64,000 bases of DNA from Methylobacterium sp. NMS14P. Lineage in GTDB: Bacteria; Pseudomonadota; Alphaproteobacteria; Rhizobiales; Beijerinckiaceae. Positions within the stretch are counted from its first letter, which is position 1, and every line of letters starts with the position of its first letter. The notes under the pieces were generated by a model that worked only from the letters and a program-made list of their open reading frames with translations, was not told the DNA's origin and did no database searches. The DNA is taken from the NCBI RefSeq assembly GCF_028583545.1, contig NZ_CP087106.1, positions 620,001-684,000 on the forward strand, given 5' to 3'. A program made the translations under genes and the position numbers. Shown piece by piece: positions 2,310-64,000 of the stretch.

Positions 2310-3218
2310 ATGCGCATCGGGCTCGCGGCCGATAACGGCACCTGGCACAAGAACCGCCTGCTCGCGGCCCTCCGCGCGAGCGGCGTCGAGCCGGTGCTGT
2401 TCTCGCTGGCCGACGTGGCCGTCGTGACCGGCGGCCACGAGCCCCTGCGCGTGCCGGGCTTCCCCGACGCCCTGCCGGACGGCGTCCTGATGCGGACCAT
2501 CGCGGGCGGCACCTTCGAGGCGACGACGATGCGGCTCGGCGTGCTGCACACCCTGGTCGCGGCGGGGGTCACCGTCTGGAACGCGCCGACCGCGATCGAG
2601 CGCTCGGTCGACAAGGCGGCGACCTCGCTGCTCATCGACCGGGCCGGGCTGCCCACGCCGGCCACCTGGGTGTTCTCGAAGCGCGAGGCGGCCGCGGCCC
2701 TGGTCGCCGCAGAGGCGCGTCCGGGCGCGCCGCTGGTCCTGAAGCCGCTGTTCGGCTCGCAAGGGGAGGGGCTCGCCCTGATCGAGCGCCCGGAAGACCT
2801 GCCCGACGAGGAGGCGGTGGCGCGGGTCTACTACCTCCAGCGCTACGTGCCGCGCCGGGACGGCCTGTGGCGCGACTACCGGGTGTTCGTCTGCGACGGA
2901 CGGGCGATCGCCGGCATGATCCGCGAGGGCGACGGCTGGATCACCAACGTCCACCGGGGCGGCCGGCCGCTGCCCTGGGCGATGCCGCGCGCCGCCGCCG
3001 AGCTGGCCGAGGCCGCCGCCGCCGCGGTCGGGGTCGACTATTCCGGCGTCGACCTCGTCGAGGACGGGGAGGGCGGGTTCTCGGTCCTCGAGGTCAATTC
3101 CATGCCGGCCTGGTCGGGGCTCCAGACCGTGTGCGAGACCGATATCGCCGCCGCGGTGGTGCGCGGCTTCCTCGCCGCGGCCCGCGGCGCCAGCCGCCCC
3201 CGGCTCGTGGTGGCATGA
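2310..3218 (+). CDS. RimK-like ATP-grasp ligase (orf5-like)
   Basis: A 302-residue ATP-grasp enzyme of the RimK/LysX type, which joins an amino acid, usually glutamate, to a carboxylate through an acyl phosphate. Motifs in order are VLKPLFGSQGEGL (nucleotide loop, about residue 147), DYRVFVCDGRAIAGMIR (about 191-207) and VLEVNSMPAWSGL, the terminal metal-binding signature. It lies between mch and a CitG-like gene, matching the mch-orf5-orf7-fae order I recall for Methylobacterium; a role in adding glutamate to an H4MPT- or methylofuran-type cofactor is inferred. I chose the ATG at 2310, preceded by CAGGAC; an in-frame GTG at 2292 is the alternative. Its TGA overlaps the next ATG. Confidence 0.85.
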   Translation: MRIGLAADNGTWHKNRLLAALRASGVEPVLFSLADVAVVTGGHEPLRVPGFPDALPDGVLMRTIAGGTFEATTMRLGVLHTLVAAGVTVWNAPTAIERSVDKAATSLLIDRAGLPTPATWVFSKREAAAALVAAEARPGAPLVLKPLFGSQGEGLALIERPEDLPDEEAVARVYYLQRYVPRRDGLWRDYRVFVCDGRAIAGMIREGDGWITNVHRGGRPLPWAMPRAAAELAEAAAAAVGVDYSGVDLVEDGEGGFSVLEVNSMPAWSGLQTVCETDIAAAVVRGFLAAARGASRPRLVVA

Positions 3219-5475: not shown

Positions 5476-7161
<1,686 letters not shown>

Positions 7162-61174: not shown

Positions 61175-61927
61175 CTAGGAGTTGGAAGGCCCGTAGGGCG
61201 GTCGCGGGATCGCCCGGTGCGCCGCGCGCAGCGCCGCCGACCAGCGCTCGCGCAGATCGTGGAAGTAGCCCTCGCCGGCCTCGATCCTGTGATTCACCTC
61301 GAGCGTCAGCGCGTTCCGGCGGGCGACCGCGATGTCGATCGGCAGGCCGACGCCGAGATTCGACCGCATCGTCGAGTCCATCGAGACGAGGCTCACCTTC
61401 AGGGCGTCGTAGAGGTCGGTCGTGTACTTCACGGCCCGGTCGAGGATCGGCTTGCCGTATTTGTGCTCGCCGATCTGGAGGAACGGCGCGTCGGTGCTGC
61501 ACTCGATGAAGTTGCCGGCCGAGTAGATCAGGTACAGCCGCATCTCGCCGTTGCCGATCTGGCCGCCGAACAGCAGCGAGATCGAGAACCGGATATTGGC
61601 CGCCTCGAACCCGTCCTTCTCGATCGAGCGCACCCGCCGGATGGCCCGGCCGATCAGCTGCGCCGCCTGGAACATGGTCGGCGCCTCGACGAGCTTCTGC
61701 GGCGGCTCGCCCTCCTCTTCGCCGGGCACGCCCTCTTGGAGCAGGCTGAGGACCGACTGGGTGATCGAGAGGTTGCCCGCCGAGGCGAGCATCATCACCC
61801 GCTCGCCCGGCACGTTGAAGTGGTGGAGCTTGCGGTAGGTCGAGATGTCGTCGAGCCCCGCATTGGTGCGGGTATCGGCGACCATGACCAGCCCCTCCTC
61901 CACCAGGACACCGACGCAGTAGGTCAT
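61175..61927 (-). CDS. Proteasome-type protease (Anbu / BPH family)
   Basis: A 250-residue Ntn-hydrolase related to proteasome beta subunits and HslV. After removal of Met1 the exposed Thr2 (MTYCVGVLVEEGLVMVADTR; the first residues suffice) is the likely nucleophile, as in Anbu. ADTRTNAGLDDISTYRKLH, MLASAGNLSITQSVL and LVSMDSTMRSNLGVGLPIDI are family hallmarks. It is the last gene of a leftward run: circularly permuted ATP-grasp, alpha-E, transglutaminase, Anbu. Known comparative work places Anbu with these genes and proposes a peptide-tagging or peptide-processing pathway; no ATPase partner is present, and the substrate is unknown. Confidence 0.95.
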   Translation of the reverse strand: MTYCVGVLVEEGLVMVADTRTNAGLDDISTYRKLHHFNVPGERVMMLASAGNLSITQSVLSLLQEGVPGEEEGEPPQKLVEAPTMFQAAQLIGRAIRRVRSIEKDGFEAANIRFSISLLFGGQIGNGEMRLYLIYSAGNFIECSTDAPFLQIGEHKYGKPILDRAVKYTTDLYDALKVSLVSMDSTMRSNLGVGLPIDIAVARRNALTLEVNHRIEAGEGYFHDLRERWSAALRAAHRAIPRPPYGPSNS

Positions 61928-61972
61928 CGTCTTCGGGCTCTCGTGCGGGTCGGCGGACCGGTGTCGGAACGA

Positions 61973-62800
61973 TCAGGATTGAGCGGCGGCCCTGCCTTGC
62001 TCGACCCGCAGCTTCACGTCCAGTGTTTCAGTGCCACCGCCGGTGCGGCTGCCGCGGATCGGCGCCGCGCCGAGGTAGTCCAGGCCGGTCGCGACGCGGA
62101 TGTAATTGTCCGCCGGGCTGACGTCGTGGCACGGGTCGAACGCCACCCAGCCGAGATTCGGCACCAGGGCCTCGACCCATCCGTGGGGCGCCTCGACATC
62201 CGCCTGGCCGTCGTCCCGGGCCCGGTAGCCGGCGACGTAGCGGGCCGGGACGCCGATGTGGCGGGCGGCGGCGATCAGGACGTGGGCAAGATCCTGGCAG
62301 ACGCCGCTCCCGGCCGCGAACGCCTTGGCGGCCGGCACAGCGCTGCTCGCGGGACCGGGCTCGTGGGCCACCGCGCCGTGGACAGCGCCCATCAGCCGGT
62401 GGAGCCGGGTCAGGACCGCGCCGTCGCCCTCGGCGGCGACGCGCTCCGCGAAGGCGTGCAGATCCGGGCTCGCGGCACACAGGTCCGTGTCGCGCAGGTA
62501 GAACTCGTCCGGCAGGCGCTCCACCGTGCCGCGGACGACGCCGTGCGTGTCGTCGGTATCGACCTCGCCGGTGACGCGGATGGTCAGGGCGTCGGCCGGC
62601 TCGTCCGGGGTGAACCAGTGGACGACGTTGCCGAACCCGTCCTCGCGGGCGGTCAGCCGCCCGTCGACGGTGGTGTCGATCCGCCACCCGCGGACGTACT
62701 GCCCGTCATGGTCCCTCGGTGTCAGCCGGAGGACCTGCACGAGCCCGCGGGCCGGCTGCTCGTAGGTGTAGATGGTCTCGTGAACCACGCGGATGCGCAT
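61973..62800 (-). CDS. Transglutaminase-like protease family protein
   Basis: A 275-residue cytoplasmic protein with an N-terminal beta domain (MRIRVVHETIYTYEQPARGL, about 1-95) and a transglutaminase-fold domain. The catalytic triad can be read as Cys in GSGVCQDLAHVL, His in EAPHGWVEALV and Asp in VAFDPCHDVSP. Such proteins form or cleave isopeptide or gamma-glutamyl bonds. It lies 45 bases upstream of the Anbu gene and 21 downstream of the alpha-E gene, so it is clearly part of this operon. Whether it acts as transferase or protease is not known. Confidence 0.95.
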   Translation of the reverse strand: MRIRVVHETIYTYEQPARGLVQVLRLTPRDHDGQYVRGWRIDTTVDGRLTAREDGFGNVVHWFTPDEPADALTIRVTGEVDTDDTHGVVRGTVERLPDEFYLRDTDLCAASPDLHAFAERVAAEGDGAVLTRLHRLMGAVHGAVAHEPGPASSAVPAAKAFAAGSGVCQDLAHVLIAAARHIGVPARYVAGYRARDDGQADVEAPHGWVEALVPNLGWVAFDPCHDVSPADNYIRVATGLDYLGAAPIRGSRTGGGTETLDVKLRVEQGRAAAQS

Positions 62801-62821
62801 GCGCCGTCCTGTCCGTCCCGT

Positions 62822-63769
62822 TCAGCCGACCAGATACTGCTTGGCGATCGCCTCGCCCACCCTGTTGTTCTCGGCGATGAACGCCTCGACGAACTCGTGC
62901 AGCCCTGTGGCGAAGACCCGGTCGATATCCTCGCCCTCCAGCTTCGCCAACATGTTTCCCGCGAGGCGCTGGCTCGGGCCGCGGCGGCCGTAGGCGTCGG
63001 CGATCAGGTCGAGGTACTCGACGATCACGCCGTAGCAGTTCGCGAAGGAGCGCGGCATCTGCTTGTTGAGCATCAGCAGGTCGGCCACCAGCAGCGGCTT
63101 GATGCTCTCCCGGTAGACCCAGTGATAGGCGTTGAACGCCGACACTTCGCGCAGGATCGTGGTCCACTGGAAGTAGTCGAGGCTGCCGCCCACCGTCTCG
63201 TCGTGCGGCAGCAGGATCTGGTACTTCACGTCGAGGATGCGGGCGGTGTTGTCGGCCCGCTCGATCGCCGTGCCGAGCCGGGTGAACCAGAACGAGTCGT
63301 TGCGCAGCATCGTCCGGAAGGCCGAGCCGTCGAAAGTCAGCGAGACGGTCTTCACCCAGTCGAGGAAGCGGCCGAACTCGTCGCGGTTGAGATCCTTGCC
63401 GGCGTAGTTGCGCAGCTCCAGCCACGCGCCGTTGATCGCGTCCCACATCTCGGTGGTGAGCGCCGTGCGCACCGAGCGGGCATTCTCGCGGGCCGCCTCG
63501 ATGCAGGAGCGGATCGAGGACGGGTTGTGCGGGCTGAAGGCCAGGAAGTCGCAGACCGTGTCGGCGTTGACCGCGCTGTAGTGGGTCTTGAACGCGTCGG
63601 GGTCGCCGGCCGAGGCGAGGGCCGATTCCCACTCGTTGCTCCCGCCGCCGCCGTAGCTCGTCGGCAGCGACGCGAAGCGGTGCGCCGCGTCGAGGATGCG
63701 GGCGACGAAGTCGGCGCGCTCGACGTAGCGCGAGAGCCAGAAGAGGTTATCGGCAGTCCTGGAAAGCAT
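62822..63769 (-). CDS. Alpha-E domain protein (DUF403)
   Basis: A 315-residue all-helical protein of the alpha-E family. It begins MLSRTADNLFWLSRYVERAD and contains LREVSAFNAYHWVYRESIKP and ANCYGVIVEYLDLIADAYGR, all typical. The function is unknown. The family is nearly always encoded beside a circularly permuted ATP-grasp protein and a transglutaminase, as here, and is thought to assist or bind the product of that ligase. Length is normal. Confidence 0.96.
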   Translation of the reverse strand: MLSRTADNLFWLSRYVERADFVARILDAAHRFASLPTSYGGGGSNEWESALASAGDPDAFKTHYSAVNADTVCDFLAFSPHNPSSIRSCIEAARENARSVRTALTTEMWDAINGAWLELRNYAGKDLNRDEFGRFLDWVKTVSLTFDGSAFRTMLRNDSFWFTRLGTAIERADNTARILDVKYQILLPHDETVGGSLDYFQWTTILREVSAFNAYHWVYRESIKPLLVADLLMLNKQMPRSFANCYGVIVEYLDLIADAYGRRGPSQRLAGNMLAKLEGEDIDRVFATGLHEFVEAFIAENNRVGEAIAKQYLVG

Positions 63770-63834
63770 CGGTCTTCAGCCAAGTCGTGCGGACCACAAT
63801 GTCCGCGCCTCGGAACGTCGGGACGGCCTAGGCC

Positions 63835-64000
63835 TCAGGCGTCGAGCACCCAGGTGTCCTTCGTGCCACCGCCCTGGCTGGAATTGACCACCAGGGAGCC
63901 TTCCTTCAGCGCCACCCGGGTCAGACCGCCCGGAACGATGCGGATCTTGTCGGCCCCGCACAGCACGAAGGGCCGCAGGTCGACGTGGCGGGGCGCGACG
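63835..64000 (-). CDS. C-terminal part of circularly permuted ATP-grasp protein (DUF404/DUF407), partial
   Basis: The last 54 codons and the stop lie in the window; the rest is beyond the right edge. The tail contains [20 protein letters not shown] followed by GGTKDTWVL, the hallmark ending of circularly permuted ATP-grasp type 2 proteins. These are predicted amide or peptide ligases. It precedes the alpha-E gene by 65 bases on the same strand and is the first visible gene of the Anbu operon. Confidence 0.9.

Follow-up and report, generated by a model that had tools for sequence, protein, structure and literature searches.

At the right end of the window analysed here, a 64-kb stretch of DNA (positions 620001-684000 on the first contig of a 6.88 Mb Methylobacterium genome), four genes on the minus strand encode an ATP-grasp ligase, followed by an Alpha-E protein, a transglutaminase-like protein and Anbu. 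We found a conserved sigma-54 type -24/-12 element, TGGCGCGCCTCTTGC, at -46 relative to the first of them, the ATP-grasp gene. The locus is a real, ordinary and well-described Anbu operon, and our additions are regulatory and comparative and describe no new system. Judging from this putative promoter, the operon is probably nitrogen-controlled. Tentatively, and with somewhat less than an even chance of being right, we interpret it as a standard Anbu operon with one sigma-54 promoter that would act as an amide ligation and cleavage unit during nitrogen starvation. No substrate is known for Anbu, a proteasome relative on which standard assays have failed; that it is a proteasome ancestor is one published view. 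The recurrence of a sigma-54 type promoter over this operon in several distant families suggests to experimenters a growth condition to apply before the search for a substrate begins.

Candidate promoter element and probable nitrogen control

The element shows the TGG(C)-N10-GC pattern at fixed spacing before the first gene, it is conserved and RpoN is encoded in the same genome, which together make it a good candidate for a sigma-54 promoter. Conservation was examined in two samples, 80 named relatives and 239 genomes drawn evenly from the whole phylum. Among the named loci, 66 of the 80 could be used (the remainder do not have the ATP-grasp gene or its upstream DNA), and a strict motif, TGGCNC-N5-TTGC within 120 bases upstream of ATP-grasp, was present in 40 of them, against 7 other occurrences in the 2.42 million strand-bases of the 80 loci. 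Since related genomes are not independent, the phylum sample weighs more. There, the motif TGGC-N7-WTGC within 160 bases upstream was sought at the 63 intact operons out of 94 Anbu loci. It was found in 26 of the 53 operons whose genomes carry RpoN, in 1 of the 10 without RpoN and in 70 of 5681 control windows (1.2%). The 26 motif-bearing operons belong to nine families, three of them in the class of the window and six in other classes. Eleven genomes were scored as lacking RpoN; eight are listed without a match, and for the other three (G142, G175 and G238) the score follows from their absence among the matches listed. A scored version of the motif (cut-off of 20 or more of 22.8) with assumed weights gave a weaker contrast, with 19 of 67 loci with RpoN, 1 of 11 without it and 1.1% of 4192 control windows. 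Among six named records that include ATP-grasp, such an element was seen upstream of this gene in Caballeronia, Aeromonas, Klebsiella (with ATGC for TTGC) and Acidithiobacillus caldus, and no such element was seen before this gene in Paracoccus and Burkholderia cenocepacia.

Two observations on the surroundings of such elements are worth recording. A palindrome of the type TGC-N11-GCA stands 25 bases before the sigma-54 element in five loci (L190-L193 and L217, in the last of which the final base differs), and a similar one occurs in named Bradyrhizobium and Afipia loci (e.g. L050, L062 and L070). Elsewhere in the Methylobacterium genome, sigma-54-like elements precede two SBP_bac_5 genes and genes of Peripla_BP_5, Peripla_BP_6 and Peptidase_C26 (L287, L301, L291, L304 and L294), as well as the gene of a GntR regulator. 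This list comes from a Pfam check of 10 hand-picked frames taken from 30 of 51 sites, of which six had any Pfam match, and is only suggestive.

A sigma-54 promoter ahead of ATP-grasp would mean that the operon is most likely switched on in nitrogen shortage, via NtrC or a related activator. The genome encodes an NtrC that scores above the family cut-off. At 27 loci with the strict motif, one of them from an RpoN-less genome, we searched the 200 bases upstream of the motif for NtrC-like palindromes, allowing up to two mismatches to the enteric consensus, from which the alphaproteobacterial one may differ. Such palindromes were present in 8 of the 27 loci and in 43 of 2141 control windows; the split was 7 of 10 outside the class of the window and 1 of 17 inside it. 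Three genomes of a single genus share the palindrome arms (CGCAC/GTGCG) but differ in the spacer. Furthermore, a megaplasmid of Acidithiobacillus caldus (L097) carries two Anbu genes (2368-3132 and 6001-6771) beside ntrB-ntrC, and a sigma-54-like element before the ATP-grasp gene.

Published data point in the same direction. In Pseudomonas putida, the same operon, PP_2685-2688, is reported to be induced under nitrogen limitation and is assigned to NtrB/NtrC (PMC7801951, citing Hervas 2009). PP2685, PP2686 and PP2687 were reported to rise under nitrogen limitation (PMC3325844), and PP_2685 and PP_2688 were higher on nitrate than on ammonium (PMC8050072). In B. cenocepacia a paralogous cluster was placed in the NtrC/sigma-54 regulon (PMC5491218), and COG3484 is among the members of predicted sigma-54 regulons in a 2025 survey (PMC12316311). 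Nitrogen control is thus already known for P. putida, and Methylobacterium constitutes an extension with a defined element. Within the accessible open-licence literature we found no earlier account of the Methylobacterium element, of the comparison with RpoN-less genomes or of Anbu outside the operon.

Several results weigh against our interpretation of the operon. The strict motif is missing in 27 of the 53 intact operons with RpoN, including 6 of 6 in each of two alphaproteobacterial families, and 10 intact operons sit in genomes scored as lacking RpoN. At 23 Anbu loci that do not have the ligase genes directly upstream, the 160 bp before Anbu contain no strict sigma-54 site. Across the genome, the motif shows no enrichment, with 51 occurrences compared with 82 of the reversed pattern. 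The Methylobacterium operon is not preceded by a canonical NtrC site; the best candidate has 4 mismatches to the enteric consensus, from which that of Alphaproteobacteria may differ. In P. putida, an rpoN mutant still showed 14-20 fold induction of three of the four genes, and PP_2685, the Anbu gene, changed only 1.12-fold in wild-type cells (PMC7801951, Table 2), which speaks against strict sigma-54 dependence in that organism. At the protein level, pull-downs of the four proteins yielded no specific complex, and Anbu was inactive on standard peptides (PMC6376114).

An explanation that draws on part of these data is that the motif is inherited background and no working promoter, the operon being expressed from elsewhere or constitutively. 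The genome-wide count below that of the reversed control, the many operons without the motif and the induction that persists in the P. putida rpoN mutant (PMC7801951) agree with it, as does the flat expression reported under several conditions (PMC5666114). Against it stands an enrichment that is specific to one position: the 26 motif-bearing operons out of 53 represent nine families, and the motif is found in 1.2% of control windows and in 1 of 10 operons from genomes without RpoN. We consider this explanation improbable.

Alpha-E and Anbu across the phylum

The four genes keep the same order and strand in 65 of the 80 named relatives. In 14 others at least one gene is absent from the available DNA, several of them owing to a contig end, and in the remaining one Anbu has the opposite orientation to its three partner genes. 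In the phylum sample, the gene order is intact at 63 of the 94 Anbu loci outside our own genome, in 20 families. The association has therefore not been lost in most relatives, an outcome that the preliminary description of this locus, made from the sequence of the window, had named as telling against its proposal. In one family (f33), neither ATP-grasp nor Alpha-E lies near Anbu in any of 8 loci from 7 genomes, though Alpha-E is encoded elsewhere in those genomes.

Among the 239 genomes, Anbu occurs in 94, Alpha-E in 141 and RpoN in 214. Alpha-E is present in 93 of the 94 Anbu genomes, with G094 as the exception, and Anbu is missing from 48 Alpha-E genomes (Fisher p about 1e-28 for the co-occurrence, with no correction for kinship). 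Because Alpha-E is found in nearly all Anbu genomes but not conversely, Anbu looks like an add-on to the ligase/Alpha-E system, and it appears that Anbu depends on this system and not the reverse.

The genes of the operon also differ in how far they have diverged. ATP-grasp is the gene most similar to our own copy in 64 of the 66 named loci that hold all four, and the transglutaminase is the least similar in all 66. In some relatives, unrelated genes lie between the transglutaminase and Anbu (L057, L067, L086, L190, L192 and L193; L070 and L079; L061, L074 and L075). Those of L067 match SBP_bac_5 and carboxymuconolactone decarboxylase, and the other inserts were judged by their likeness to L067 or by eye.

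The four proteins and their possible chemistry

The families proposed in the preliminary description for the four same-direction genes agree with Pfam and Protein Data Bank (PDB) matches, and the catalytic residues that it had named for the transglutaminase and Anbu were located and are conserved; counts come from alignments thinned for redundancy. Anbu matches the Pfam family Proteasome (E 7.9e-6) and, far more closely, solved Anbu structures (E 3e-78 to 1e-59). The five PDB sequences that reach E <= 0.001 carry the name Anbu (designed or natural) or 'Peptidase' (5lox and 5nyw), and PMC8665760 counts 5lox as an Anbu entry. The sequence is thus nearer to Anbu proteins of known structure than to other members of the proteasome-like group. 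The best named relative is 95% identical in Anbu, and the closest named relatives are Methylobacterium species. The catalytic set of the Anbu encoded here consists of T2 (mature T1), D18 (D17) and K33 (K32). In 45 sequences D18 and K33 are invariant, and T2 is kept in at least 90%. The transglutaminase matches Bact_transglu_N and Transglut_core, and its Cys-His-Asp triad was placed at C168 (94% of 53 sequences), H206 (100%) and D222 (100%).

The ATP-grasp protein matches CP_ATPgrasp_2 (E 9.5e-164) and has a solved relative, 3n6x (E 1.6e-200). Residues K370, G376-G379, D430, R432, N462, K470 and D471 are conserved in 100% of 53 sequences. By analogy with other ATP-grasp enzymes, they presumably represent the ATP-binding lysine, the Gly-rich loop and the metal/phosphate residues, and their retention predicts an active ligase. 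In published tests the protein released phosphate from ATP (PMC6376114).

Alpha-E matches PF04168 (E 9.9e-96), and its AlphaFold2 model is all helical and of high confidence (pLDDT 92); a Foldseek comparison of this model with the PDB gave no match at E 0.001 or better. We found that the protein is a tandem duplication of a unit of ~150 residues, each with an ER..A..AR..D motif. The halves are homologous by hhalign (99.2% probability, E 1.7e-19, 140 columns aligned), against 0.2% probability and E 0.37 for the reversed control. All 54 sequences aligned carry R18, R24 and E170.

The same genome carries a second cluster (L008:11-6126 and L272; G000:C1 about 1881005-1888125) in which a DUF2126 protein, transglutaminase-like at its start when judged by eye, is encoded together with a fused ATP-grasp/Alpha-E protein and one more transglutaminase. 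In the model of the fusion (pLDDT 87.5), the ATP-grasp half matches 3n6x and eukaryotic glutathione synthetases. Across 46 fusion sequences most of the ligase positions have been lost: K370 is kept in 10, G376 in 4, G377 in 6, G379 in 3, K470 in 19, and D430 and N462 in none. By comparison, G170 and R178 are retained in 46 of 46, R432 in 43 and D471 in 39. The fusion of our own genome has R, Q, A, D, A, E and A at K370, G376, G377, G379, D430, N462 and K470. With its degraded ATP site, the fusion is likely a pseudo-ligase.

Based on adjacency, on the fusion in the paralogue and on co-occurrence, we infer that ATP-grasp and Alpha-E work as a pair. In the mechanism that we propose, the operon would be read from a single sigma-54 promoter before the ATP-grasp gene, and ATP-grasp and Alpha-E would form one ligase that spends ATP to couple an amine or an amino acid with a carboxylate on a peptide or protein. 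This class of substrate and the direction of flow that follows are what we predict: the transglutaminase would transfer or hydrolyse a side-chain amide, Anbu would cut the resulting amide or isopeptide, and as a net effect bound nitrogen may be stored, moved or released.

The preliminary description had suggested the synthesis, transfer and processing of a peptide or tag, a proposal that PMC5666114 and PMC6376114 attribute to Iyer et al. 2009. Two of our results shift it, since the promoter points to nitrogen starvation and Anbu looks like an add-on. In the form ascribed to Iyer et al., the operon makes a small peptide or a modified metabolite that ATP-grasp/Alpha-E and the transglutaminase build and Anbu trims. 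Statements in both papers are in line with this, and so is the predicted fold of the ATP-grasp half in the fused-paralogue model, which is nearest to 3n6x and eukaryotic glutathione synthetases and then to glutathionylspermidine/trypanothione synthetases. However, no transporter, carrier or precursor peptide was evident among the few neighbours examined, no systematic search having been made, and the authors of PMC5666114 judged the small-peptide proposal less likely after proteasome inhibitors were found to bind; we regard it as rather doubtful.

It is also conceivable that Anbu is a general degrader of proteins and peptides for nitrogen recycling, and that the ligase and the transglutaminase only prepare or tag its substrates. 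The conserved Ntn site described above would fit this role, as would the inhibitor binding and nitrogen induction discussed in PMC5666114. Against it stand the lack of activity on standard substrates (PMC6376114) and the presence of HslV in the same genome (G000:C1:3466371-3466880), which Anbu hence does not replace. The 23 Anbu loci outside the operon without a nitrogen-type promoter would also be odd if Anbu were the point of response, and we find a general degrader unlikely.

A further reading, and a very unlikely one by our estimate, would be a tagging cycle in nitrogen starvation. ATP-grasp/Alpha-E would add a nitrogen-rich residue or short chain to side chains of proteins or peptides, with the acceptor held by the two symmetry-related ER sites of Alpha-E, the transglutaminase would move or deamidate the tag, Anbu would be a de-tagging isopeptidase and the fused paralogue a reader or carrier of the tag. 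Such a cycle would account for the association of Anbu with Alpha-E, for its inactivity on standard linear peptides and for its independence of an unfoldase. The apparent dependence of Anbu on Alpha-E, the duplication within Alpha-E and the paralogue whose ATP site is degraded offer concrete partners and residues for testing.

Locus layout and comparison with known systems

The measured gaps between the genes (Table 1) are those reported in the preliminary description, which had also taken the locus as one operon-like unit with a known gene association and a chemistry that is not known; all three points are upheld here. With gaps of 21 to 65 bases and no internal sigma-70-like site in a consensus scan, the four genes may form one transcript, and the same scan revealed no sigma-70-like promoter or terminator between or around them. 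Extending the sequence rightward, as had been advised, gave the whole ATP-grasp gene. A second Alpha-E or a further ligase had been named as something to look for beyond it; instead, the operon is directly preceded, on the same strand, by a RadC-type gene and an M24 peptidase gene (L007:7472-9025). The M24 peptidase might in principle strip the methionine ahead of Anbu Thr1, a link that finds no support here. None of the four operon genes encodes an AAA+ protein, and the two adjoining upstream genes match RadC and M24 peptidase.

Table 1. Coordinates of the Anbu operon and its candidate promoter
Feature	Position in the window	Strand	Assigned from
Anbu, proteasome-beta-like Ntn hydrolase, 250 aa	61175-61927	-	Pfam, PDB, residue conservation
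Gap transglutaminase/Anbu, 45 bases	61928-61972	-	
Transglutaminase-like protein, 275 aa	61973-62800	-	Pfam, residue conservation, identities
Gap Alpha-E/transglutaminase, 21 bases	62801-62821	-	
Alpha-E protein, 315 aa, all helical	62822-63769	-	Pfam, AlphaFold2 model, hhalign
Gap ATP-grasp/Alpha-E, 65 bases	63770-63834	-	
Circularly permuted type 2 ATP-grasp gene, 3' end inside the window	63835-64000	-	
Full ATP-grasp gene, 477 aa	63835-65268 (end = G000:C1:685268), past the window end	-	Whole genome
Putative sigma-54 type promoter TGGCGCGCCTCTTGC	65300-65314 on extended window numbering (G000:C1:685300-685314), outside the window	-	

Compared with the Anbu operon of PMC5666114 and PMC6376114, the Methylobacterium locus has the same four families, order, strand and catalytic residues, and likewise no AAA+ gene among the four; gene content is identical, and what the Methylobacterium group adds is a regulatory detail, the sigma-54 type element. 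P. putida shares the proteasome beta-like PP_2685, the transglutaminase PP_2686, the circularly permuted type 2 ATP-grasp PP_2688 and the nitrogen-dependent induction; there, however, an NtrC link is reported with reference to Hervas et al. 2009, while no canonical NtrC site is seen in Methylobacterium. The DUF2126/fusion cluster of our own genome (L008) holds paralogous ATP-grasp, Alpha-E and transglutaminase, and B. cenocepacia I35_5080-83 resembles it by annotated domains, but no Anbu is present, and in our own genome the ligase is fused to Alpha-E and the equivalents of the Gly-rich loop, D430 and N462 are gone. Finally, Anbu shares with HslV and the 20S proteasome the Ntn beta-subunit family and the catalytic set of Thr1/Asp17/Lys type, and differs from them in that its operon encodes no AAA+ unfoldase and that the published Anbu is an open split ring (PMC8665760), a dodecameric assembly reported for other Anbu proteins.

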